Under the pieces are notes generated by a model that saw only the letters and a program-made list of their open reading frames with translations, was not told where the DNA came from and did no database searches. 26,811 nucleotides of DNA from an uncultured delta proteobacterium (GTDB lineage Bacteria; RBG-13-61-14; DRUE01). The position numbers and the translations under genes were made by a program. Positions within the stretch are counted from its first letter, which is position 1. Each line of letters begins with the position of its first letter. Of the stretch, positions 3,078 to 20,336 are shown piece by piece. Location: NCBI GenBank assembly GCA_903930515.1, contig CAIYYW010000154.1:1-26811 (forward strand), given 5' to 3'.

Positions 3078-3482
3078 TTATTCCTTTTTGATTTTCTGAA
3101 CGGACGAATATTTTCTGAAGAATCCCGCGATTTCCAGCCGATCAGATTTTCCTTCTGCGGCCTTGATCGCCAAGGCCTCAAATAAATTTTCCGGCGCATC
3201 AAGTTCGATTCCGTTCAAATCCAGGAACACGACCGCGGAAACCACGCCGGCGCGTTTGTTGCCGTCAACAAACGGATGGTTCTTGATGAGATAAAACATA
3301 TAAGCGGCGGCCATTTCATAAAGGTCTTTGTTGAAATACTGGTCAAATACCCCGGCGCCGGGCATTGCGATGGCGGACTGCAACAGCCCCAGGTCTCTGA
3401 TCCCGGCTGAGCCGCCATACCTCTGGATCTGGTCATTATGGATTTCCAGAACCTCGGATAGTTCCAGAAAAACCGGATTCAT
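3078..3482 (-). CDS. doc: Death-on-curing (Doc/Fic-fold) toxin
   Basis: This predicted toxin of a type II toxin-antitoxin pair is 134 residues long, the usual size. The active-site loop HPFVDGNKRAG occupies residues 69-79. Lysine replaces the second glycine of the AMP-transferring Fic motif, which is the Doc variant. Doc of phage P1 is known to phosphorylate EF-Tu and so arrest translation, and the same chemistry is inferred here. The N-terminus resembles Doc proteins (V-EIHNDQIQRYGG around residues 11-24). It is encoded 3 bases downstream of an AbrB/MazE-type antitoxin on the same strand, so the pair is surely cotranscribed. No truncation or missing catalytic residue is seen. Confidence 0.9.
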   Translation of the reverse strand: MNPVFLELSEVLEIHNDQIQRYGGSAGIRDLGLLQSAIAMPGAGVFDQYFNKDLYEMAAAYMFYLIKNHPFVDGNKRAGVVSAVVFLDLNGIELDAPENLFEALAIKAAEGKSDRLEIAGFFRKYSSVQKIKKE

Positions 3483-3485
3483 CGT

Positions 3486-3713
3486 TTATCCGGCAAGCCG
3501 CTTGAGCATTTTTCCGTATCTAGCGTTGGCTTTGGTCAGACCGGCCTGGAACCTCTTCCTCCGTTTCTGGCTCCGCAAAGGATTGATGATGATCAGGTTC
3601 CCGTCGGTGGAAATCTCCAGAGGCGTTTCCGAATCAATCTTCAATAGCTCCAGCACCCCCTTGTCAATCACCAGGGCCAGGGAATTCCCGTGTCTGGTAA
3701 GTTTCTTGATCAT
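3486..3713 (-). CDS. AbrB/MazE/SpoVT-family antitoxin
   Basis: The 75-residue protein has an N-terminal swapped-hairpin DNA-binding domain at about residues 1-47 (IKKLTRHGNSLALVIDKGVLELL, then a short LEIS-DGNLIIINP strand pair). A very basic tail follows (RSQKRRKRF onward), probably the toxin-binding and neutralising segment. The start ATG is supported by GAGGAGG shortly upstream. It is encoded directly before doc, the usual antitoxin-first order, and should repress its own promoter through the palindrome at 3729-3758. Doc is classically paired with Phd, so the AbrB-type partner is a swap worth noting. Confidence 0.88.
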   Translation of the reverse strand: MIKKLTRHGNSLALVIDKGVLELLKIDSETPLEISTDGNLIIINPLRSQKRRKRFQAGLTKANARYGKMLKRLAG

Positions 3714-3728
3714 TTGCCATCCTCCTCT

Positions 3729-3758
3729 GGTATTACTTTGTAGTTACATTATGATACC
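3729..3758. promoter_or_regulatory. Imperfect palindromic operator of the antitoxin-doc operon
   Basis: A 30-bp dyad is centred between 3743 and 3744. The outer arms are GGTAT and ATACC, the inner arms TGTA and TACA, with a further symmetric A/T pair between them; 10 of 15 positions pair. It covers the -10 element and the predicted start of the antitoxin transcript, where an AbrB/MazE-type autorepressor would be expected to bind. Binding is inferred, not shown. Confidence 0.55.
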
Positions 3759-3776
3759 ACAAAATCGCCCGGTCAA
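3748..3776 (-). promoter_or_regulatory. Promoter of the antitoxin-doc operon
   Basis: Reading the minus strand, TTGACC (3771-3776), a 17-base spacer and CATAAT (3748-3753) match the sigma-70-type consensus at 5 of 6 positions in each box. The predicted transcript start near 3741 leaves a leader of about 28 bases that contains the GAGGAGG ribosome-binding site. The -35 box lies within a GCCCGG/CCGGGC inverted repeat at 3767-3784. Confidence 0.6.
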
Positions 3777-3796
3777 GTCCGGGCTGAGCCGCCTTT

Positions 3797-3826
3797 TTGA
3801 CATTCAAAAATCAGGGCGGCTATAAT
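3797..3826 (+). promoter_or_regulatory. Near-perfect sigma-70-type promoter for the two lipoprotein hydrolases
   Basis: TTGACA (3797-3802) and TATAAT (3821-3826) are both exact consensus hexamers, separated by 18 bases. Transcription would start near 3833, just ahead of the GAGGTGG ribosome-binding site at 3834-3840 and the ATG at 3849. It stands back to back with the antitoxin promoter, the two -35 boxes being 20 bases apart. Confidence 0.75.
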
Positions 3827-3848
3827 CATTTATGAGGTGGAAAGGAAG

Positions 3849-4805
3849 ATGAAAAAACTTTTGCTGGTTTCAGTTTTTGCGGTGATCTTGAGCGGATGCG
3901 CAGTCCGTGCCCCGCGCGGGCCGATCAAGGGGCCGGTGTATCCGCTCCAGGAGAATTCCGCCGAGCTGTTGGGGACGAGGGTTGTTTATGTTGAAGGCGG
4001 GGTTGGCGAGACCGTGATTTTCGTGCACGGGGTGGGCGGGGCGCTGCTGGACTGGGAAAAGGTCCTGCCCTATTTTGCCCGGCGCTATCATACCATTGCC
4101 TTGGACCAGCCCGGGTTCGGCAAGTCGGAGAAGCGAATGGACTATCATTATTCCATAGGCAACAACGCGAAGGTCCTGCTCGCGTTGATGGACGCGAAAG
4201 GGATTCCCAAGGCATACATCGTCGGGAATTCCATGGGCGGGGAAGTGGCGGCGTATTTCGCGATCCACTATCCGGAGCGGGTGGACAAGCTGGTATTGGT
4301 GGACGCGGCCGGCGCTCTGAATCTTCCCGATTTGCCTTTTATTCCAGAACTGATCTGGCTGTTGGCCAAACCCATTGACAGCCTGTCCAACCGATCCGGG
4401 TCCAACGACCCGCACACTTCCGACCCGGAGCGGGTTCAGCCCAATATCGCGCAGGCGATTTACAACTCGGATGAGTGGTGGGCCTGCCGGGAGGCCTGGC
4501 GGGACGAGGTGTATGACATCTTCCGGCTGGATTTAAAACCGGAACTGAAAAAAATATCCGCGGCCACTTTGGAAATCTGGGGATCAAACGATCCTTTGCT
4601 CAAGGCCTATTCCAAGTGGTATTTCTGGGAGCAGATCCCGGGCTCCGAACTCCTGATTATCCCCGGGGGCGACCACACCCCCCAGCTTTCCCAGCCCCGC
4701 GCCTTTGAATCAGCGGTGGACGGGTTTCTGCAAGGGAAACCCAACCCGGCTTACGCGAAGAGGGGCGAGAAGGTGAGGCTGGAGAAAAAATCAGCCGGCA
4801 ATTAA
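3849..4805 (+). CDS. Alpha/beta-hydrolase lipoprotein
   Basis: This 318-residue serine hydrolase is anchored to the cell envelope. The signal peptide MKKLLLVSVFAVILSGC ends in a lipobox with the lipid-modified cysteine at residue 17. The fold follows: oxyanion loop HGVGG at 60-64, DQPGFGKS at 86-93, nucleophile elbow GNSMGG with Ser128, and probable acid Asp248 (WGSND) and His276 (GGDHTPQL). A GTG at 3837 would extend the N-terminus by four residues, but the ATG at 3849 gives the standard charged lipoprotein start with GAGGTGG eight bases before it. The substrate is unknown; esterase, lipase or C-C hydrolase activity is possible. The next gene, 31 bases downstream, encodes a second lipoprotein esterase. 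Confidence 0.85.
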   Translation: MKKLLLVSVFAVILSGCAVRAPRGPIKGPVYPLQENSAELLGTRVVYVEGGVGETVIFVHGVGGALLDWEKVLPYFARRYHTIALDQPGFGKSEKRMDYHYSIGNNAKVLLALMDAKGIPKAYIVGNSMGGEVAAYFAIHYPERVDKLVLVDAAGALNLPDLPFIPELIWLLAKPIDSLSNRSGSNDPHTSDPERVQPNIAQAIYNSDEWWACREAWRDEVYDIFRLDLKPELKKISAATLEIWGSNDPLLKAYSKWYFWEQIPGSELLIIPGGDHTPQLSQPRAFESAVDGFLQGKPNPAYAKRGEKVRLEKKSAGN

Positions 4806-4836
4806 GTTTTTCGCCGCGGATACTAAAGGGGAAATA

Positions 4837-6477
4837 ATGAGAGGCTGGAAAATTTCCGCAATCATCTTGCTCTCAATCCTTGCGGTCGGCTGCCCGACCC
4901 CGCAAAAAGTTTCTTCCAATCCTGCGGCTGATGAAATTTGCGTCAAGCCGGTGAAGACCGACTCCGGGCTGGTGGAAGGGCTTGCGGAAATCGGGACCGA
5001 GAGTTGCGTCTGGCGGGGGATTCCTTATGCCGCGCCGCCGGTCGGGGATTTGCGCTGGAAAGCTCCTCAGCCGGTCAAGGCCTGGAACGGGATCCGGAAC
5101 GGATCTCTCTGGGGGAACCGGTGTATGCAGATTGATAATTTTATGATGAATTTTTTCAACTCCGATCCTTCCGGCGCGATGAGCGAGGATTGTTTGTATT
5201 TGAATATCTGGCGGCCGAAGACCCAGGGCGGCCTGCGGCCGTTTCCGGTGATGTTTTTCCTCCACGGCGGGGGCCTGGGACTGGGCACCGGCAATACCCC
5301 CACTTACTGGGGAGACCGCTTGTCCGAGACCGGCGGGGTGGTGGTGGTCACGATCAACTATCGGTTGAGCCTGCTCGGGTTCTTGACCCTGCCGTCCCTG
5401 CGGGCGGAAGACCCGAACCGGAGCTCGGGCAATTACGGAATTTTGGATCAGATCGCGGCGCTCAAATGGGTGAAGCAGAACATTGAAAAGTTCGGGGGCG
5501 ATCCCGCCAACCTCACCATCTTCGGAGAATCCGGAGGGGGCTGGAGCGTCTGCGCCCTGGCCGCGACCCCGCTCGGGAAGGGCCTGTTCAAAAACGCAAT
5601 TATGGAAAGCGGCGGGTGCGATCGCGCTCAAACCATGGACCGGGGATTTCAGCAGGGCACGGAACTGGCTGGAAAAGTGGGATGCAAACCCGAAAACCTG
5701 GATTGCCTGCGCAAGGTTCCGCCTGAAAAAATACGGGACGCGAGCCCGGAGCCGACCTTCGCCCGGTTCTCGGCCGGGCCGCATATTGACGGATACCTGC
5801 TCAGCGCGACTCCGCTGGAAATAATCCGGGCCGGGAATTTCAATCCGGCATCCTGGATCGTCGGCAACAACCGAGACGAGCTGTCAATGAATCTCTGGTC
5901 CATCCGGAAGGATTTGCGCAAGACCCCTTTGGAAAAATATCCGGAGGCCTTGCGCGGTTTCCTGTCCCTTTCCGAACCCGAAGCCAAAGAGCTGGCGCGC
6001 CTTTACCCGCTGAGCGAATTCTCGGATACGCCGATGAAAGCGTATCAAAGGATGGCGAGCGATTTTTCCCTGATCTGCCCGAGTTATCAAGGCATGGTCG
6101 CGGCCGCGGCAAACGGCGCTCAAACTTATTTATACCGTTTTGATTACACCGATTTCCGGATGTCCAAAAACGCCGGGGCAATGCACGGGATTGAACTGCC
6201 GTTCGTGTTCAACAGCTTTGACCGGAAGATGTTCATTATTTTTTTCAGCAACGGGATGCGGGAAAGGGCTGAACCGCTTTCCAAAATCATCCAGTCTTAC
6301 TGGATCAATTTCGCCAAGACCGGAAATCCGAACGGGCCGGGCTTGCCGGAATGGCCGGGGTTTGATCCGGAAGCCGGGAAGGCGCAGATCCTGGATTTAC
6401 CGGTCCGGACCGAGGGTTGGGACATTTCCGACCGGTGCCGATACTGGCAGGATCATCCGACCCAATTGGATTGGTGA
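4837..6477 (+). CDS. Type-B carboxylesterase lipoprotein
   Basis: This 546-residue protein belongs to the carboxylesterase/lipase family that hydrolyses carboxylic esters. The signal peptide ends in LAVGC, with the lipidated cysteine at residue 19, so it is predicted to be membrane-anchored outside the cytoplasm. Family marks are GIPYAAPPVGDLRW at 61-74, SEDCLYLNIW near 116-125, the oxyanion HGGG at 143-146, nucleophile Ser232 in GESGGG, Glu348 in NNRDE and His450 in AMHGIELPFVF, a full Ser-Glu-His triad. The length is normal. A GGGG ribosome-binding site precedes the ATG by about 5 bases. It is probably cotranscribed with the preceding hydrolase, so the two may act on related ester substrates; that is inference. 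Confidence 0.9.
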   Translation: MRGWKISAIILLSILAVGCPTPQKVSSNPAADEICVKPVKTDSGLVEGLAEIGTESCVWRGIPYAAPPVGDLRWKAPQPVKAWNGIRNGSLWGNRCMQIDNFMMNFFNSDPSGAMSEDCLYLNIWRPKTQGGLRPFPVMFFLHGGGLGLGTGNTPTYWGDRLSETGGVVVVTINYRLSLLGFLTLPSLRAEDPNRSSGNYGILDQIAALKWVKQNIEKFGGDPANLTIFGESGGGWSVCALAATPLGKGLFKNAIMESGGCDRAQTMDRGFQQGTELAGKVGCKPENLDCLRKVPPEKIRDASPEPTFARFSAGPHIDGYLLSATPLEIIRAGNFNPASWIVGNNRDELSMNLWSIRKDLRKTPLEKYPEALRGFLSLSEPEAKELARLYPLSEFSDTPMKAYQRMASDFSLICPSYQGMVAAAANGAQTYLYRFDYTDFRMSKNAGAMHGIELPFVFNSFDRKMFIIFFSNGMRERAEPLSKIIQSYWINFAKTGNPNGPGLPEWPGFDPEAGKAQILDLPVRTEGWDISDRCRYWQDHPTQLDW

Positions 6478-6493
6478 TCCCAAGAGGAACGGT

Positions 6494-7312
6494 TCAGGAT
6501 AAATCCACCGCCTGATGGATCCGGCTGATCGTGTCCTGCAGGAACCGCTCATTGTTGAAGGAAATATTGATCGCGCCCTGATCGCACGCGTCCACGCACC
6601 TCCCGCATCCCTTGCACAAGGTTTCGTTGATCACCGCGAGCTGATCGTACATCCTGATCGCGCCGGCGAAGCAGACCTTTTCCGCGCACGCGCCGCAGCC
6701 GGTGCATTGGTCATTGACAAAAACTTTCACCCCCGGCAGCCGGGTGACCTTGTTCGCGATCTCAGGGGAAAGAAGCGGCAAATTTTTCCAGATGCAGCAG
6801 CAGGGGCAGCAGTTGCAGACGGTGAGCAATTTCCCCCCCGGGCCGACATCCAGCCAGACCGCATCCAGCTTGTTCCTGCCGATCATATGCACCAGACCCG
6901 CCTCCCGGCATTTGCGGGCGTGCGCAATCGCTTCCTCTTTGCTCACCCGCCGGCCCAGCGCCGGGTTGATCTTGACTGCGGCTTCGCCCAGGAACAGGCA
7001 GCCCAGGTCCCTCGGGTAATCCTTGCATTGCAGGCCCTCGCGGCAGATGCACTCGTTCATAATCCAGTGGTAATCGGTCTGGTTGATGAAATGCTCCACC
7101 ACCTGCGAGGGCAAACACATCTGGCCGGGCAAGGCTACCGACTGGTTGACCGGGATCAGCTTGTCCCGGGTGAGGAAGAGAATATCGTCCCCGCGGAACA
7201 GCCAGTTGTCAATAAACTTTCCGATCAGCGGCCATCTGGTCATCCGCGCGATGATCGGGTTCCAGCGGTAGGATTTGGTCAAGAGCTTGTTGCCAAAAGC
7301 GGAACGCGGCAT
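6494..7312 (-). CDS. Cysteine-rich 4Fe-4S ferredoxin-domain protein
   Basis: The 272-residue protein has three cysteine groups. The N-terminal one is C88, C90, C96 and C105. The middle one is the dense CNCCPCCC block at 166-173. The C-terminal ferredoxin domain has C203-C206-C209-C214 and C233-C236-C239-C243. In the first ferredoxin cluster four residues rather than three precede the last cysteine. Soluble proteins of this kind occur in anaerobes as predicted redox proteins of unknown partner, and I do not know the reaction. An AACGGAGG ribosome-binding site lies just before the ATG. It follows hisD by 73 bases on the same strand and may be read from the murA-hisD promoter. The opposite strand is open but is a shadow. 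Confidence 0.8.
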   Translation of the reverse strand: MPRSAFGNKLLTKSYRWNPIIARMTRWPLIGKFIDNWLFRGDDILFLTRDKLIPVNQSVALPGQMCLPSQVVEHFINQTDYHWIMNECICREGLQCKDYPRDLGCLFLGEAAVKINPALGRRVSKEEAIAHARKCREAGLVHMIGRNKLDAVWLDVGPGGKLLTVCNCCPCCCIWKNLPLLSPEIANKVTRLPGVKVFVNDQCTGCGACAEKVCFAGAIRMYDQLAVINETLCKGCGRCVDACDQGAINISFNNERFLQDTISRIHQAVDLS

Positions 7313-7385
7313 TTTTCCTCCGTTTAAACTGACGGCCCTTTCTTGGGCAAAGATGAAACCGGCTTATTCAGCATTCTCCCGGAAT

Positions 7386-8639
7386 TTATTTTTCAAACCG
7401 GATCTTAAGCGACCGGCTGTGCTCTTTCAGGCCCTCCAACTCGGCGAATTCCGCGGCCGGCTTTCCCAGTTGACGCATCATCTCCGAGCAGATCCGGACC
7501 ACGCTCTGCCTTTTCATAAAATCCCAGACCCCGAGCGGCGAATCAAACGCGGCCCGGCCCCCGGTGGGGAGGCAATGGTTGGGTCCGGCGAGATAATCCC
7601 CGATCGCGACCGGGGAATCGGCTCCCGCATAAATCGCCGCGGGACCGGTCAGTCCGGCGAGCAATTGTTCCGGCTCCGCGGTATGTATTTCCAGGTGCTC
7701 GGGCGCGATCCGGTTGGAAAGCTCAATCATCTCCGGGTCGCTCCGGGAATGGATCAGGAATAAATTCTTGCCCCGGAGTTTTAAGCCGGCTTTGATCTTT
7801 TCCAGGTAGTCCGCGGAAGTGGAAAGCAAGAACGCCCAGCCCCCTGGGCCGTGCTCAAGTTGGGCGGAAAGGTCCGCGATTGCGTATTCCGCGGGAGCCG
7901 AGCCGTCGGACAGGATCACGATCTCGCTGGGGCCGGCAAAGGTGTCAATCCCGATCAGGCCCTTGCTCTGGCCGTAAACCTTGGCCGCGCTCACCCAGGG
8001 CCCGCCCGGGCCGACCACCTTGTCCACCTTCTGAATCCTGCCCGCGCCGAGAGAGAGCAGCGCGATCGCGTGCGCTCCCCCGACCCGGTAGATTTCCTCC
8101 ACCCCGGTCAGCTTGGCCGCGAATAAAATCGCCGGATGAATTTTTCCGGTCCGGTCCGCGGGAGTGACCATCGCGATCCTTTTCACCCCCGCGATCTGGG
8201 CCGGGATCGCGGTCATCAACACCGTGCTCGCGAGCGGCGCCTTTCCGCCCGGAATGTAAACGCCCACGCTCCGGAGCGGAATCCAGCGTTCCTCAAAAAA
8301 GCTGTCCGCCTCCTTGAGGATGTATCCGTCCGGAACCTGGCCGCGATGAAAGCGCTCAATCCTCTTGACCGCCAGCCGGATCGCCTGGATTTGACCCGGG
8401 CTAAGTTCTTTTTCCGCGCGGTTAAGCTCCTTTTCGCTCACCCGCAATTCTTTTTCGGTCCCGGAAAACCCGTCAAATTTTTTCGCAAATTCCAAAACCG
8501 CCCGGATCCCCCGTTTCTCAAGCGCGGAAAATATCCCGGCGACTTTTTCTTCCAGACCGAGCTTGAACCCGGCTCTTTGTTTGAGCAGACGGCTGAACTC
8601 CCCCGCAAATTTCTTGTCCCTGGTGTTCAGGATCTTCAT
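7386..8639 (-). CDS. hisD: Histidinol dehydrogenase
   Basis: HisD carries out the last two steps of histidine synthesis, oxidising L-histidinol to L-histidine with two NAD and a bound zinc ion. The 417 residues fit the family length. Zinc and catalytic positions are kept: Gln260 and His263 (AQLEHG), Glu314 and His315 (APEHLEIH), Asp348 (GDYLAGPNH) and His407 (LEGLKEHS). VYIPGG at 127-132 is also typical. Some normally constant spots differ: GPGG replaces GPGN near 210-213, EHG replaces EHD, and GIDTFAGPSE carries Thr where Met is usual, so this is a divergent member. The start overlaps the murA stop by 4 bases (ATGA), implying coupling. A HisD-like alcohol dehydrogenase with another substrate is less likely, because hisF is also present in the window. 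Confidence 0.88.
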   Translation of the reverse strand: MKILNTRDKKFAGEFSRLLKQRAGFKLGLEEKVAGIFSALEKRGIRAVLEFAKKFDGFSGTEKELRVSEKELNRAEKELSPGQIQAIRLAVKRIERFHRGQVPDGYILKEADSFFEERWIPLRSVGVYIPGGKAPLASTVLMTAIPAQIAGVKRIAMVTPADRTGKIHPAILFAAKLTGVEEIYRVGGAHAIALLSLGAGRIQKVDKVVGPGGPWVSAAKVYGQSKGLIGIDTFAGPSEIVILSDGSAPAEYAIADLSAQLEHGPGGWAFLLSTSADYLEKIKAGLKLRGKNLFLIHSRSDPEMIELSNRIAPEHLEIHTAEPEQLLAGLTGPAAIYAGADSPVAIGDYLAGPNHCLPTGGRAAFDSPLGVWDFMKRQSVVRICSEMMRQLGKPAAEFAELEGLKEHSRSLKIRFEK

Positions 8640-9907
8640 AATTCCTTCGCCCTCCTGATCCTCGCTCCCGCCGCGTTTAATTTTTCCTCCATCCGCTCGT
8701 ATCCCCGGTCCAAATGATATACCCGAGAAACCTCGGTGGTGTTCTCGGCCGCCAGCCCGGCCAGAACCAAACTCGCGCTCGCGCGCAGGTCGGTCGCCAT
8801 CACGGTGGCGCCGGAAATTTTTTTCACCCCCGTGACCAAAGCCCGGTTCCCCTCCAGCTTGATGTTCGCGCCCATTCTTTGCAATTCCAGCGCGTGGAGG
8901 AACCGGTTTTCAAAAATAGTTTCCGTGATCATACTGACCCCGCCCTCAACCAGGGAAAGCAGCGCCATCATCTGCGCCTGCATATCGGTGGGGAACCCGG
9001 GATAGGGCGCGGTCCGGACATCCACTCCCCGCAGTTTTCCATCGCGCCAGACCCTCAGGCCTTGACCGGTTTCTTCAATCCTGACCCCGGCCTCGTGCAG
9101 CTTGGCAATCACCGATTCCAGATCATTGGGATGTGCGTTCCTGAGCAAAAGGTCTCCGCCCGTGATCGCCCCGGCCACCAGGTAAGTCCCGGTCTCAATC
9201 CGGTCCGGCATAATCCGGTGGGATTTCGGAGAGAGCGTTTCCACGCCGGTGATTTCAATCCGGTCGGTTCCCGCGCCCTTGATTTTGGCGCCCATCTTGA
9301 GCAGGTATTCGGCCAAATCAACCACTTCCGGCTCCTGGGCGCAATTGAGCAGAACCGTCTTGCCCGGAGTGAGCGTCGCGGCCATCATCACATTTTCGGT
9401 CCCGGTGACCGTGACGATGTCAAAAGTAATTTCGCTCGGATGCGACTCCTGCTTCTGGGCGTAAATGTATCCGTGCTCCACGCTCACCTTCGCCCCCAGC
9501 ATCTCCAATCCCTTGAGATGAAGGTCCACCGGTCTCGCCCCGATCGCGCACCCGCCGGGGAAGGATACCTCCGCGCAGCCGAACCTTGCGTAAAGCGGCC
9601 CGAGCGCCAGGATGGACGCGCGCATGGTCTTGACCAATTCGTAGGGCGCGCGTTTGCTCTGGACCCCCGTGGTGTCTATTCCGAGAATTTTTCCAGAGTC
9701 CAGCTTTGACCGGTCCGCCTTCGCGCCCAGTTCTTCCAATAACTCGCACATGGTATCAATGTCGCGCAGGTTGGCCACATTCTCCAGCAGATGTTTTCCA
9801 GGCGCCAAGATCGTGGACGCCATCAGGGGGAGCGCGGCGTTTTTCGCTCCGGAGATTTCAATTTCTCCTTCCAACCGGTGTCCGCCTTCAATGATCAGCT
9901 TGTCCAT
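8636..9907 (-). CDS. murA: UDP-N-acetylglucosamine 1-carboxyvinyltransferase
   Basis: MurA transfers enolpyruvate from PEP to UDP-GlcNAc, the first committed step of peptidoglycan synthesis in the cytoplasm. The 423-residue protein begins MDKLIIEGG, has the SGAKNAALP loop with Lys22 and Asn23, and the catalytic loop GGCAIGARPVDLH with Cys120, equivalent to Cys115 of the E. coli enzyme. The cysteine suggests the fosfomycin-sensitive form. A TTG nine bases upstream (9916) is also in frame, but the ATG at 9907 matches the family start. No Shine-Dalgarno sequence precedes either; the promoter at 9918-9945 would put the transcript start only 3-4 bases before the ATG. hisD follows with a 4-base overlap. 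Confidence 0.93.
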   Translation of the reverse strand: MDKLIIEGGHRLEGEIEISGAKNAALPLMASTILAPGKHLLENVANLRDIDTMCELLEELGAKADRSKLDSGKILGIDTTGVQSKRAPYELVKTMRASILALGPLYARFGCAEVSFPGGCAIGARPVDLHLKGLEMLGAKVSVEHGYIYAQKQESHPSEITFDIVTVTGTENVMMAATLTPGKTVLLNCAQEPEVVDLAEYLLKMGAKIKGAGTDRIEITGVETLSPKSHRIMPDRIETGTYLVAGAITGGDLLLRNAHPNDLESVIAKLHEAGVRIEETGQGLRVWRDGKLRGVDVRTAPYPGFPTDMQAQMMALLSLVEGGVSMITETIFENRFLHALELQRMGANIKLEGNRALVTGVKKISGATVMATDLRASASLVLAGLAAENTTEVSRVYHLDRGYERMEEKLNAAGARIRRAKEL

Positions 9908-15531: not shown

Positions 15532-15861
15532 ATGATCAGGTGGTTTTTAAGCACATTGCTGATCGCGGTGGTGGTGGCGGGGGTGATGATTGTTTATTTA
15601 AGCCCGGACCTGCGCGGGAAAGCGGTCGGCTGGTTCAAAGAGAAGAACCAGATCGTGGAAAAGCGGGTGAAGGCGGTCAAGGATTCCCTGCCCGGGGAAT
15701 CCAAGTTGAGCCAAGTCAAAGAGTTGCTCTGGCCGAAAACCAAGCCGTTCTCGGACCAGGCCCAAAAACCATCGTCGGATCAGATCACGGACCAGGACCG
15801 GAAGCAATTGGAGCAGGTCCTGGAGCAGGCTGAAAAAGTCAACCCGGGTCAAAAGAAATAA
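15532..15861 (+). CDS. Small single-pass membrane protein of unknown function
   Basis: The 109-residue protein has one strong N-terminal membrane segment (residues 4-24, FLSTLLIAVVVAGVMIVYL) and a hydrophilic, lysine- and glutamine-rich remainder with heptad-like stretches (NQIVEKRVKAVKDSL, then RKQLEQVLEQAEKV), suggesting a helical domain on one side of the membrane. I do not recognise a family. An excellent ribosome-binding site (AGGAGGTGG) and an extended -10 promoter show that it is a real expressed gene. It lies divergent from the flippase operon and is separated from the zinc-ribbon cluster by a possible terminator, so membership in either unit is uncertain. Confidence 0.7.
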   Translation: MIRWFLSTLLIAVVVAGVMIVYLSPDLRGKAVGWFKEKNQIVEKRVKAVKDSLPGESKLSQVKELLWPKTKPFSDQAQKPSSDQITDQDRKQLEQVLEQAEKVNPGQKK

Positions 15862-15955: not shown

Positions 15956-15984
15956 TTGCCTTGGATCAAGAGGGTGGATATAAT
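15956..15984 (+). promoter_or_regulatory. Promoter of the zinc-ribbon cluster, leaderless
   Basis: TTGCCT (15956-15961), a 17-base spacer and an exact TATAAT (15979-15984) precede the GTG start at 15991 by six bases. Transcription would then begin at or next to the start codon. A GAGGGTGG stretch upstream is too far away, and lies upstream of the predicted transcript start, so it cannot serve as ribosome-binding site. Confidence 0.5.
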
Positions 15985-15990
15985 AAGTCC

Positions 15991-16734
15991 GTGGAGATCA
16001 AGTGCAGTCAGTGCGGAGCAGGGCTTGAGGTTAGCGAGGAAAGCGGATTTATCGGTTGTCCTTATTGCGACTCCCGGCTTTATATTGAAACGGCGCAGTC
16101 GGTTCAACATTCCTATCTCAAGCCCGGGATCAACCCGGAGCAGGTTGCCGGGGTAATCGCGGAGGAATTGTCCAAGCGGGAGTTGACCCAGCCGGTGAGC
16201 GTGATCCAGAGCGAGCTGGTGTTCGTGCCGTTCTGGCTGATCAAGCTCAAAAACGGACTGCTCCGGTTTCCGGCCTCGGAACTGGAAATAGCGGAACTTC
16301 GGGATTTTTCCATCCCGGTGGGAGCGGTGATCCCTTATGACCCGGAGATAGAGGGAAAGGCCAAAGTGGAGATGCCGGAACTGAGCCTGGATGATATTTT
16401 GGCGGGGCCGAAACTGGAGAAGCGTAAGGACGAGATCGTAAAATCGGAGCTGGTTCATATTCCGTTTTACAAGACGGATTATAAATATCTGGACCAGGTA
16501 TTTTCGGCCATGGTGGATGCGGGGGCGGGAAAGCTGTATGCGGATAGTTTGCCGGTTTCCGCTTCCCCTCAAAAGGATCGGTATTTTTTGACGCTGTTTG
16601 CGATTTTGAGTTTGATCTTTCTGCTGGAGGCGTATCTGATTCCGAAATTCTGGGTTTTGATTCTGGTTTATCTTGCGACCGGAGCCGGGGCCTGGTATTT
16701 AATTCAGGCTAACATCAAACAGAAGGGATATTGA
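15991..16734 (+). CDS. Zinc-ribbon membrane protein, first of three relatives
   Basis: This 247-residue protein is of no family I can name. An N-terminal four-cysteine zinc ribbon has C5-C8 and C23-C26 (KCSQCG, GCPYCDSR). A SYLKPGI segment at 41-47 follows. Two similar blocks come next, SELVFVPFW at 74-82 and SELVHIPFY at 152-160, suggesting an internal duplication. Two C-terminal membrane helices lie at about 199-218 and 220-238. The frame stays open upstream to a GTG at 15916, but the two sister genes start 8-9 residues before their first cysteine, and the promoter's -10 box lies inside that extension, so the GTG at 15991 is chosen. It begins a run of three genes with 1-base gaps. A role in membrane sensing or envelope stress is only a guess. 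Confidence 0.75.
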   Translation: MEIKCSQCGAGLEVSEESGFIGCPYCDSRLYIETAQSVQHSYLKPGINPEQVAGVIAEELSKRELTQPVSVIQSELVFVPFWLIKLKNGLLRFPASELEIAELRDFSIPVGAVIPYDPEIEGKAKVEMPELSLDDILAGPKLEKRKDEIVKSELVHIPFYKTDYKYLDQVFSAMVDAGAGKLYADSLPVSASPQKDRYFLTLFAILSLIFLLEAYLIPKFWVLILVYLATGAGAWYLIQANIKQKGY

Positions 16735-16735
16735 A

Positions 16736-17860
16736 TTGGCCAAGATTTATCGCCTGAACTGTCCCAACTGCGGCGGGTTGATTTCCTCGCGCGGGGAGCG
16801 GGTGGTGGAATGCAAGTTCTGCAATTCCCGGAGCCTGGTGCTAATTCCGGACTGGACTCCGAAATATTATGTGAAGCCCGGTCTGGATTTTAGTCAGGCG
16901 CGAAGGGCGATGGTGGATCTGTTCAAGCGGGATGAGGTTGAGACCGGATTATTAAAGACGGCGCGTTTTGAATCCGCGGACCTGTTCCTGGCGCCGTTTT
17001 ATTTTTTGAGGGCGAAGCGGGTCGGGGTTTTCACTTCCTTTGGCCAACCCCAGACGATGGGCGCGGAGGCGATCTGGAGTATGGGCAACGAGGGTTTAAA
17101 TTACCGGCAATTGGTAAAAAAGCAGAGATTGGAGGAGCAGAGCAAAACCGATTCGCGGGTGATTTTCAATGATGTGGAGCGGAGCTTTCCCGCGGTGAAT
17201 CTGGAGGACTGGGGGCTGAATGAATTTGAGCCGGACAAGGTGATTGTGGCGAATGAGTTGGAGCTGAATCGGTATCGGAGGGATGAGCTGGATAAGCTGG
17301 GCGTGGTGCTGGAGCCGAGGCTGTCTGCAAAAGAGCGGGTGGAGCAAATTTTCAAGACGCCGGAGCTGGCTTCGGTTAAGGACAATACGCAGGTGGTTGA
17401 GCAGAGGGTGGAGCTGATTTATTACCCGGTCTGGAGAATCCGCTGGCGCTACCGGGGCAGGGCCTTTCAGACCACCATTGACGGCGTGACCGGGAAATTT
17501 TTATTCACCCGGGTCCCGGCCAAGGAGCGGGCCCGAGTGGTCTGGCTGTTGGCGGTGTCCGCGGCCGTGGGCCTGAGCATCGGCAAACTGCTCAAGATCC
17601 CGCACTTGATCCTGGCGACCGGGTTGGTGGGGATCTGGGTGATCCCGATATTTTCCCTGGTAATGTTGTTCTTTGTGGCGTTCGGTTGGAATATGTTCCG
17701 CTACAGCACCGAGCTGATCGTTTGCGGGGATACTTTAAGCGCGGAGATGATCGGGAGGCCGAGGGAAACGGTGTTTGATAAAATGGCCCTGGGGCTGAGC
17801 CGGTTTTTAGACAAGGGTTTGAAAGAGGCGGAACGGAGAAGGGAAAGGTTCTGGTTTTAA
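16736..17860 (+). CDS. Zinc-ribbon membrane protein, second of three relatives
   Basis: The 374-residue protein is the largest of the trio. The zinc ribbon has C9-C12 and C26-C29 (NCPNCGG, ECKFCNSR). YYVKPGLDFSQARRAM at 44-59 and ADLFLAPFYFLRAKR at 81-95 mirror the first gene product. A long charged middle follows. Then VELIYYPVWRIRWRYRGRAF (225-244) and TTIDGVTGKFLF (246-257) recall PepSY-like strand-turn segments. Two hydrophobic stretches at about 266-285 and 288-317 suggest membrane insertion, and the basic tail ends RRRERFWF. The start is TTG at 16736, one base after the preceding stop. Function is unknown. Bacillus YdjG-type zinc-ribbon membrane proteins have a comparable layout, but I cannot show homology by eye. 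Confidence 0.75.
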   Translation: MAKIYRLNCPNCGGLISSRGERVVECKFCNSRSLVLIPDWTPKYYVKPGLDFSQARRAMVDLFKRDEVETGLLKTARFESADLFLAPFYFLRAKRVGVFTSFGQPQTMGAEAIWSMGNEGLNYRQLVKKQRLEEQSKTDSRVIFNDVERSFPAVNLEDWGLNEFEPDKVIVANELELNRYRRDELDKLGVVLEPRLSAKERVEQIFKTPELASVKDNTQVVEQRVELIYYPVWRIRWRYRGRAFQTTIDGVTGKFLFTRVPAKERARVVWLLAVSAAVGLSIGKLLKIPHLILATGLVGIWVIPIFSLVMLFFVAFGWNMFRYSTELIVCGDTLSAEMIGRPRETVFDKMALGLSRFLDKGLKEAERRRERFWF

Positions 17861-17861
17861 G

Positions 17862-18521
17862 ATGGCGATCAGGGTTATACCTTTGAAATGTCCGGCCTGC
17901 GCCGGGGTTTTAACCGGGTTTGAGACGGATCAGATTTTTTTCTGTCCGACTTGCCCGGGCGGCTGGGATTTTTCCGGGGCGGCGCCCAGTCCGATCAAGC
18001 TCAGCTATGCTCAGGCCGACCTGATTCCGCGTCAATACCGGCGGATTTTTTATCTGCCCTTCTATTATTACCGGATTTCATCTTTTGCCTTGAATGGCGG
18101 GGACCGGATTCAGATTCAGGAGCGGGTGATCGGGGCATTGAATGAGCTGAAGGGGTTGTATGTTCCGGGGTATCAGTTGCTGCGGGAGAGCTATTTCGGG
18201 GATCTGGGTTTGATCTATACCGAGAGGAAGATTGAGATGGAAGAGGATACGAATCGCGGGAACCCGGCCTGGCAAAGGTTCGGGTCTGCGACCCGGAGCC
18301 TGAAAGAGGCTGAGGCTTACCTGAAACATTACCCGCTCCTGATCATTGACAAACGGCAGGACATCACGGGAATGGAGTTGAGTATGGAATCCAACCTTGA
18401 GCGGGTCTGGGCGGTTCCGTTCTTTGACCTGGGCAAGCAAATTCAGGACGGGATTCTGGGCAAGGGCTTTTCCGCGTTTGCCCTGGATACGATAGATGAA
18501 TTCCGGAAGATCAATTACTGA
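17862..18521 (+). CDS. Soluble zinc-ribbon protein, third of three relatives
   Basis: The 219-residue protein has a zinc ribbon with C10-C13 and C28-C31 (LKCPACAGVL, FFCPTCPGGW). Then come LSYAQADLIPRQ and IFYLPFYYYRI at about 62-72, the counterpart of the FVPFW/LAPFYF block in its two neighbours. It lacks their C-terminal membrane helices and is probably cytoplasmic or peripheral. The start ATG lies one base after the previous stop, so the three genes are one transcript and likely one complex. No enzyme motif is visible and no family name can be given. The ribbon could bind zinc for protein-protein contact rather than nucleic acid. Confidence 0.72.
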   Translation: MAIRVIPLKCPACAGVLTGFETDQIFFCPTCPGGWDFSGAAPSPIKLSYAQADLIPRQYRRIFYLPFYYYRISSFALNGGDRIQIQERVIGALNELKGLYVPGYQLLRESYFGDLGLIYTERKIEMEEDTNRGNPAWQRFGSATRSLKEAEAYLKHYPLLIIDKRQDITGMELSMESNLERVWAVPFFDLGKQIQDGILGKGFSAFALDTIDEFRKINY

Positions 18522-19692: not shown

Positions 19693-19947
19693 ATGGGAAA
19701 AAAGAATAAAACCGCCCGAATCGTTTCTGACCCCAAAATCCTTTTGGGCAAGCCAATTGTCAAAGGAACCCGACTCTCCGTGGATTTTATTCTTTCCCTG
19801 CTCGGAGCCGGCTGGACCGAAAAGCAGGTCTTGGATAATTATCCCGTGCTAACCCGGGAAGATCTGGTTGCGGTATTTAATTACGCCGCCACAATCCTGG
19901 AAGAGGAAAAGATTCTACCGCGCCCCAAAAAAGCTCATAGTAGATGA
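19693..19947 (+). CDS. DUF433-family antitoxin
   Basis: The 84-residue protein has the DUF433 pattern almost throughout: RIVSDPKILLGKPIVKGTR at 9-27, then FILSLLGAGWTEKQVLDNYP and LTREDLVAVFNYAA. This family is a small winged-helix-like DNA-binding fold, commonly encoded before a DUF5615 PIN-like protein and treated as the antitoxin and autorepressor of that pair. Its stop overlaps the next start by 4 bases (ATGA). The promoter lies immediately upstream and there is almost no room for a ribosome-binding site. Its role as antitoxin is inferred from family pairing. Confidence 0.87.
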   Translation: MGKKNKTARIVSDPKILLGKPIVKGTRLSVDFILSLLGAGWTEKQVLDNYPVLTREDLVAVFNYAATILEEEKILPRPKKAHSR

Positions 19948-20336
19948 GAGTTATTCCCCATCCAGACCCGGCAAAGCCCCGATTGCTCTTGGATGAATGT
20001 ATACCCCGATCAGTGTTCTTCAGCCTTCAAGATCACAAATTTAATGCCAAATGGATTGGAGAAGAATGCCCAAGCGCCTCAGACCGGGAAGTGATTGAAT
20101 TGGCAAAACGGGAAAGGAGAATCCTGGTCACTCTTGACAAGGAGCACTTTGGGGCAATCTTAATGAGAAATCGGCTGGAGCTCACTGGGATGGTTTTATT
20201 TCGGATTGAAGCGAAGCCGATTGATCTGATGAAATCAATCTTCATAGATTTTTTCGAGGAATATGGCAGTCGCCTGGAGGGCAAGATAACGGTCTATAAA
20301 GAAAATCAAATCAGGCAGAGATCATTGGAATTCTAA
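19944..20336 (+). CDS. DUF5615 PIN-like toxin
   Basis: The 130-residue protein carries the acidic residues expected of the PIN-like ribonuclease fold: D17-E18 in LLLDECIP, D47 in SASDREVIELA, and D65 with K66 in RRILVTLDKEHFG, followed by the ELTGMVLFRIE strand. DUF5615 proteins are predicted metal-dependent RNases that act as toxins beside DUF433 antitoxins. The first about 12 residues (MRVIPHPDPAKP) extend beyond the family's usual start. The 4-base overlap with the antitoxin gene makes the assignment of the ATG secure. The RNA target is unknown. Confidence 0.84.
   Translation: MRVIPHPDPAKPRLLLDECIPRSVFFSLQDHKFNAKWIGEECPSASDREVIELAKRERRILVTLDKEHFGAILMRNRLELTGMVLFRIEAKPIDLMKSIFIDFFEEYGSRLEGKITVYKENQIRQRSLEF

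Follow-up and report, generated by a model that had tools for sequence, protein, structure and literature searches.

Membrane recruitment of SPFH (flotillin/stomatin-like) proteins that carry no membrane helix has been studied, according to the literature found, in Bacillus subtilis. YdjI of this bacterium is an SPFH protein of that kind, which needs YdjG and YdjH for the membrane; deletion of either ydjG or ydjH leads to loss of the foci and of the membrane recruitment of both YdjI and PspA, and in two-hybrid assays YdjH, but not YdjG, contacted YdjI and PspA (PMC8581546). SPFH-ribbon proteins have also been described in archaeal loci (PMC10936438).

Here, we analyzed three consecutive genes, P1, P2, and P3 (the trio), in a 26,811-nt stretch of DNA (the window) from an uncultured delta proteobacterium. 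An earlier note on this sequence had read them as a membrane system loosely recalling the Psp-like loci of Bacillus that contain YdjG. This lead was right because P1 and P2 are related to Bacillus-type YdjG, and we consider it fairly probable that the trio anchors an SPFH scaffold to the membrane independently of PspA.

Sequence features of the trio and relationship to YdjG

The three genes are located on the plus strand and are separated by 1-base gaps (Table 1). Each product has a Cys4 zinc ribbon, as the earlier note had stated, and all 12 ribbon cysteines are invariant in the 15 to 17 homologues compared for each protein. The aromatic blocks listed in the note (VPFW, APFYF, and LPFYYY) are also present, but every protein has a second such block (HIPFY, YYPVW, and AVPFF in P1, P2, and P3, respectively). 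The YxKPG-type segment said to precede the blocks is real in P1 (YLKPG) and P2 (YVKPG), but its conservation is not strict and P3 does not have it. The proposed division into two membrane parts and one soluble part agreed with hydropathy across orthologues: C-terminal hydrophobic stretches were found in the P1 and P2 orthologues, and no membrane segment was detected in any of the 15 P3 orthologues.

Table 1. Coordinates of the trio genes, their predicted domains, and the upstream hexamer in the window
Feature	Position	Strand	Basis
TATAAT hexamer	15979-15984	+	Pattern match only
P1 gene, 247 aa, GTG start	15991-16734	+	ORF; orthologues; profile homology to P2 and YdjG
P1 Cys4 zinc ribbon, C5/C8/C23/C26	16003-16068	+	Invariant in 16 orthologues
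P1 core domain with VPFW and HIPFY aromatic blocks and VDAGAGK motif	16096-16560	+	hhalign without ribbon
P1 C-terminal hydrophobic stretch, probable helix hairpin	16579-16710	+	Hydropathy across orthologues
P2 gene, 374 aa, TTG start	16736-17860	+	ORF; homologue alignment; AlphaFold model (pLDDT 75)
P2 Cys4 zinc ribbon, C9/C12/C26/C29	16760-16822	+	Invariant in 17 homologues
P2 core domain with APFYF and YYPVW blocks and TIDGVTGK motif	16862-17521	+	hhalign; AlphaFold model; structure comparison
P2 predicted membrane hairpin, two helices	17525-17701	+	Hydropathy; AlphaFold model
P2 C-terminal tail, two strands and a helix, in close relatives only	17702-17857	+	Homologue comparison; AlphaFold model
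P3 gene, 219 aa, ATG start	17862-18521	+	ORF; orthologue alignment; AlphaFold model (pLDDT 80)
P3 Cys4 zinc ribbon, C10/C13/C28/C31	17889-17954	+	Invariant in 15 orthologues
P3 putative core with LPFYYY and AVPFF blocks	17994-18473	+	AlphaFold model; core sequence homology not significant

The TATAAT hexamer is located 6 bases from the GTG start of P1, and a TTGCCT sequence (positions 15956 to 15961), likewise a pattern match only, is found 17 bases upstream of it; a leaderless P1 transcript from TATAAT is possible on the basis of the pattern match. Upstream of these elements, positions 15532 to 15858 (plus strand) encode a 109-amino-acid protein with an N-terminal membrane segment. This gene was rejected as a member of the system, the best family match having an E value of only 0.26; the genus mate of the window's genome has an unrelated opposite-strand gene at the corresponding place. 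Elsewhere in the window, a DUF433 gene overlaps a DUF5615 (PIN-like) gene (Pfam; positions 19693 to 20336, plus strand), which we take to be the layout of a toxin-antitoxin pair, and a Fic/DOC family gene of the short death-on-curing type (PF02661; E value, 8e-18) is found at positions 3078 to 3482 (minus strand).

Searches with P1, P2, and P3 against Pfam, NCBIfam, PADLOC, and PDB sequences gave generic ribbon matches only, all of them below the cut-off, and the best were those to RNA polymerase subunit P/Rpo12 and L37Ae, under the curated cut-offs. No link of the three proteins to phage defense was found in the PADLOC and family searches. The earlier statement that they belong to no named family is thus true in Pfam and NCBIfam, but P1 and P2 do have relatives in the Bacillus-type YdjG proteins.

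Profile-profile comparisons (hhalign) were carried out with full-length profiles and with the ribbons removed, and reversed profiles were used as controls. The YdjG comparisons were made with real sequences, an approximate YdjG query having served as bait only, and the reference locus (L107) was checked to have the pspA-ydjGHI arrangement (PspA, YdjG, TPM protein, and SPFH). P1 and P2 matched each other at 99.9% over the full length and at 99.3% without the ribbons (reversed controls, <2.5%). The corresponding matches to YdjG were 99.6% and 98.6% for P1 and 99.7% and 99.1% for P2 (reversed controls, <1%). These profile comparisons show homology of P1 with P2, and of both with YdjG, that extends beyond the ribbon. 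The P3 ribbon matched at ~97%, whereas the similarity of P3 beyond the ribbon was not significant (72% with P1, 4% with P2, and 29.9% with YdjG), and at the sequence level P3 is for certain related to P1 and P2 in the ribbon only. In the AlphaFold models, however, the main strands of P3 are in the same order as those of P2, which suggests the same core in both, and we infer that P3 shares the core domain of P1 and P2. The origin by duplication proposed in the earlier note is accordingly strong for P1 and P2 but weakly supported for P3 beyond its ribbon, and the profile-profile comparisons that the note had called for did not place the three proteins in different known families. In the tree, P2, P3, and YdjG formed one clade each (support, 0.96 to 0.97), as did P1 minus one member (support, 0.92), with P1 to P3 placed outside the YdjG clade; these separate clades point to an old divergence of the trio paralogues and set them apart from YdjG.

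Foldseek searches with the AlphaFold models of P2 and P3 gave nothing at an E value of ≤0.001. In the structure comparison, the P2 model came closest to the YpeB C-terminal domain (5boi; Z score, 6.1; root mean square deviation, 2.5 over 70 residues), a PepSY-like domain, with 10% identity, a Foldseek E value of 1.5, and only part of the core covered. The second was 4exr (Z score, 5.8), and both Z scores are below 8 and just above those of the unrelated rows. The weak fold resemblance of the P2 model to YpeB, which implies no common function, agrees with the published statement that a domain of YdjG is YpeB related (Ravi et al., PMC11237479). The structural matches of P3 were mainly to its ribbon, and therefore no fold is claimed for P3.

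Distribution of the trio and linkage to SPFH and COIL genes

The genus mate (G001, locus L116) has the same trio in the same order, on one strand, and with the same 1-base gaps, at 62% to 68% identity, and a genome of a different phylum (G037) has it in the same order and strand at 25% to 27% identity. Divergence at codon position 3 of the trio genes is about twice that at position 2, a pattern as in genes under selection. Conservation in the genus mate and in another phylum, together with this codon pattern, is better than expected by chance. A first scan of genome contigs with P2 alone gave no match, and a P2 profile matched in 19 of 386 genomes; the 19 include weak matches, possibly to other ribbon proteins, and the trio or part of it was identified in 15. 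Further trio genes were found in Chloroflexi, Acidobacteriota, Thermoanaerobaculia, Ignavibacteria, and Candidatus Edwardsbacteria and, among the archaea, in Candidatus Methanoperedens and a member of the Thermoplasmata. The order P1-P2-P3 on one strand is found in every locus where all three are together; the gene neighborhood survey suggested in the earlier note thus revealed a three-gene order kept in bacteria and archaea and relatives that do occur together. There are also some divergent arrangements: (i) P1 is unlinked from the rest of the trio in one genome (G247); (ii) P3 was not found beside P1-P2 at loci L046, L098, and L110; and (iii) P2-P3-like fusion genes are present at loci L051, L100, and L108. 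In addition, a Thermococcus metagenome-assembled genome (MAG) has two P2-like genes in tandem (L131, positions 3394 to 5381), an archaeal two-gene version.

The earlier note had stated that neither a PspA nor an SPFH gene is present. No SPFH gene was found within the window, and no PspA was detected in the whole genome (93% complete; controls positive), but the genome does have an SPFH gene on another contig (C283). This gene, unlinked from the trio, encodes a YdjI-type SPFH protein with C-terminal ribbons (PF13421; E value, 2e-60) and is located directly downstream of a gene for a 169-amino-acid protein, here designated COIL. PspA was found in 2 of the 15 trio genomes and was absent from 13, and with PspA missing from the window's genome and from most trio genomes, it was rejected as a partner of the trio.

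COIL is a soluble, probably coiled protein of ~170 residues. Searches of Pfam and NCBIfam placed it in neither a PspA nor an ESCRT-III family, and the one match of note, a weak one, was to NCBIfam NF047596 (LIMLP_15305 family), a Leptospira family of uncharacterized function. For the COIL proteins encoded by the window's genome and by Methanoperedens, this match covered nearly the full length (E values, 5e-10 and 9e-11, respectively); at ~40 bits, with the cut-off at 210, the likeness is distant. The distant likeness to NF047596 was noted for COIL at locus L057 (positions 6348 to 6857, minus strand).

COIL adjoins the SPFH gene in 21 of the 24 surveyed genomes holding both, and the pair immediately precedes the trio in at least six genomes. 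Contiguous COIL-SPFH-P1-P2-P3 sets were identified in the CSSED10-310 bacterium, a Clostridia MAG, a Thermoanaerobaculia MAG, two Candidatus Methanoperedens genomes, and a Thermoplasmata archaeon, and an Ignavibacteria MAG has COIL-SPFH-P1-P2, with the contig end falling within P2. In the window's genome, as well as in that of its genus mate and in the trio genomes G037, G246, G137, and G111, the COIL-SPFH pair is located away from the trio. The SPFH orthologues have no membrane segment, as judged by hydropathy. With relatedness ignored, full-length PF13421 proteins were present in 18 of the 19 P2-profile genomes versus 42 of the 367 others (Fisher test, 4e-15), and COIL was present in 13 of the 19 versus 14 of the 367 (Fisher test, 8e-13). 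When one genome per family was counted, PF13421 and COIL were found in 14 and 10, respectively, of the 15 P2-positive genomes. Of the 15 genomes with a complete or partial trio, 14 have an SPFH gene; no full-length PF13421 protein was found in the trio genome G084. Pairwise tree distances of P1 to P3 showed no correlation with those of SPFH (only 7 to 8 loci) and, for SPFH and COIL taken together, no relation beyond noise (6 to 8 loci).

Possible functions of the trio

As the simplest model, we propose that the trio consists of three YdjG-like proteins that became paralogues long ago, each composed of a zinc ribbon and a YdjG-type core. P1 and P2 would reside in the cytoplasmic membrane through their C-terminal helices, with the ribbon and core on the cytoplasmic side, and P3 would be the soluble third subunit completing the receptor. 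Together, they may form a membrane receptor for the YdjI-type SPFH protein, itself devoid of a membrane helix, so that the SPFH scaffold could assemble on the membrane via the trio with COIL as a small coiled companion. We infer direct SPFH binding, this topology of P1 and P2, and a PspA-free role in maintaining the envelope or in its stress response. In favor of the model are the linkage and strong co-occurrence of the trio with COIL-SPFH, the membrane segments of P1 and P2 as opposed to their absence from SPFH, the homology of P1 and P2 to YdjG, and the effects of the ydjG and ydjH deletions in B. subtilis. Several points count against it: YdjH, and not YdjG, made the two-hybrid contacts in B. 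subtilis, and no YdjH-like gene was seen beside the trio; the trio and COIL-SPFH are unlinked in the window's genome; the pairwise distances of P1 to P3 do not correlate with those of SPFH; G084 showed no full-length PF13421 protein; and the P3 core similarity is not significant.

If the trio is an SPFH anchor, it would be a candidate dedicated SPFH receptor in distant bacterial phyla and in archaea. Since the trio occurs mostly in genomes without PspA, SPFH recruitment could then be investigated separately from the phage shock response, and several gene families unnamed in Pfam and NCBIfam would obtain a function.

At locus L051 (positions 4015 to 9738), genes for COIL, a YdjI-type SPFH protein, a fused P2-P3-like protein, an NfeD1b protease, and a slipin are arranged in a row. 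SPFH proteins of other subfamilies are known to bind FtsH (PMC2636767). Both observations would fit a trio that acts as an adaptor or substrate recognition module in membrane protein quality control, capturing substrates for an SPFH-bound FtsH or NfeD-type protease. However, the NfeD adjacency was seen at this one locus only and no protease was a regular neighbor of the trio at the loci read, and we regard such a function as unlikely.

The small, soluble, and probably coiled COIL, with its position beside the SPFH gene, could also be likened to PspA, which heads the pspA-ydjGHI operon, and the trio would then anchor a PspA replacement in another version of the Psp response. This is quite unlikely, given the lack of a COIL match to PspA or ESCRT-III families, the weak match to NF047596 being the only one, and the absence of PspA itself from most trio genomes.

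A regulatory role has been proposed for YdjG on the basis of its TFIIB-type ribbon (Popp et al., PMC9239133), and the best ribbon matches of the trio are to transcription and translation ribbons. A membrane-tethered regulator with nucleic acid-binding zinc ribbons nevertheless seems improbable, as the ribbon similarity is generic, none of the matches reaches the curated cut-offs, no further DNA-binding part was identified, and the genes linked to the trio encode SPFH proteins and not regulators. Finally, three unrelated zinc ribbon proteins merely sharing an operon, as the ribbon-only similarity of P3 might indicate, are highly improbable and, for P1 and P2, already contradicted by the profile homology to each other and to YdjG beyond the ribbon (with negative reversed controls); moreover, the trio stays together across phyla and in archaea, and the modeled strand order of P3 is that of P2.

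Comparison with the pspA-ydjGHI system

Among the known systems, pspA-ydjGHI is one of the closest to the trio. YdjG, annotated as a TFIIB-type zinc ribbon-containing protein, resembles P1 and P2 in the succession of a zinc ribbon, a core that contains a TG motif as well as two aromatic blocks, and a C-terminal membrane helix, the last of which is absent from P3. The YdjG gene also has a YdjI-type SPFH gene adjacent or close by, as does the trio in at least six genomes. However, YdjG (L107) has two N-terminal ribbons, whereas P1, P2, and P3 have one each. YdjG is encoded by a single gene beside those for PspA and the TPM protein YdjH, whereas here there are three paralogues and a COIL gene instead; no YdjH-like TPM domain gene was observed next to the trio at the loci inspected.

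The SPFH protein of the window's genome is similar to YdjI-type SPFH proteins (PF13421, Band_7_1) in its C-terminal zinc ribbons and in having no membrane helix, but it scored ~200 bits versus >300 for the best PF13421 members of the survey, and its gene lies beside COIL on a contig other than that of the trio. The pspA-ydjGHI operon is headed by PspA, whereas the window's genome lacks PspA. The YdjI-type SPFH gene is within that operon and likewise accompanies the trio in the six or more genomes with the contiguous arrangement, whereas it is unlinked in the window's genome.

The five-gene COIL-SPFH-P1-P2-P3 set was undescribed in a full-text literature search (subscription journals and preprints were mostly outside it), and the trio system is probably a cousin of the Bacillus stress system that is undescribed within the literature covered. 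It is conceivable, although doubtful, that COIL-SPFH-P1-P2-P3 represents a separate membrane scaffold system of bacteria and archaea, in which COIL replaces PspA and a three-subunit zinc ribbon receptor replaces YdjG/YdjH.
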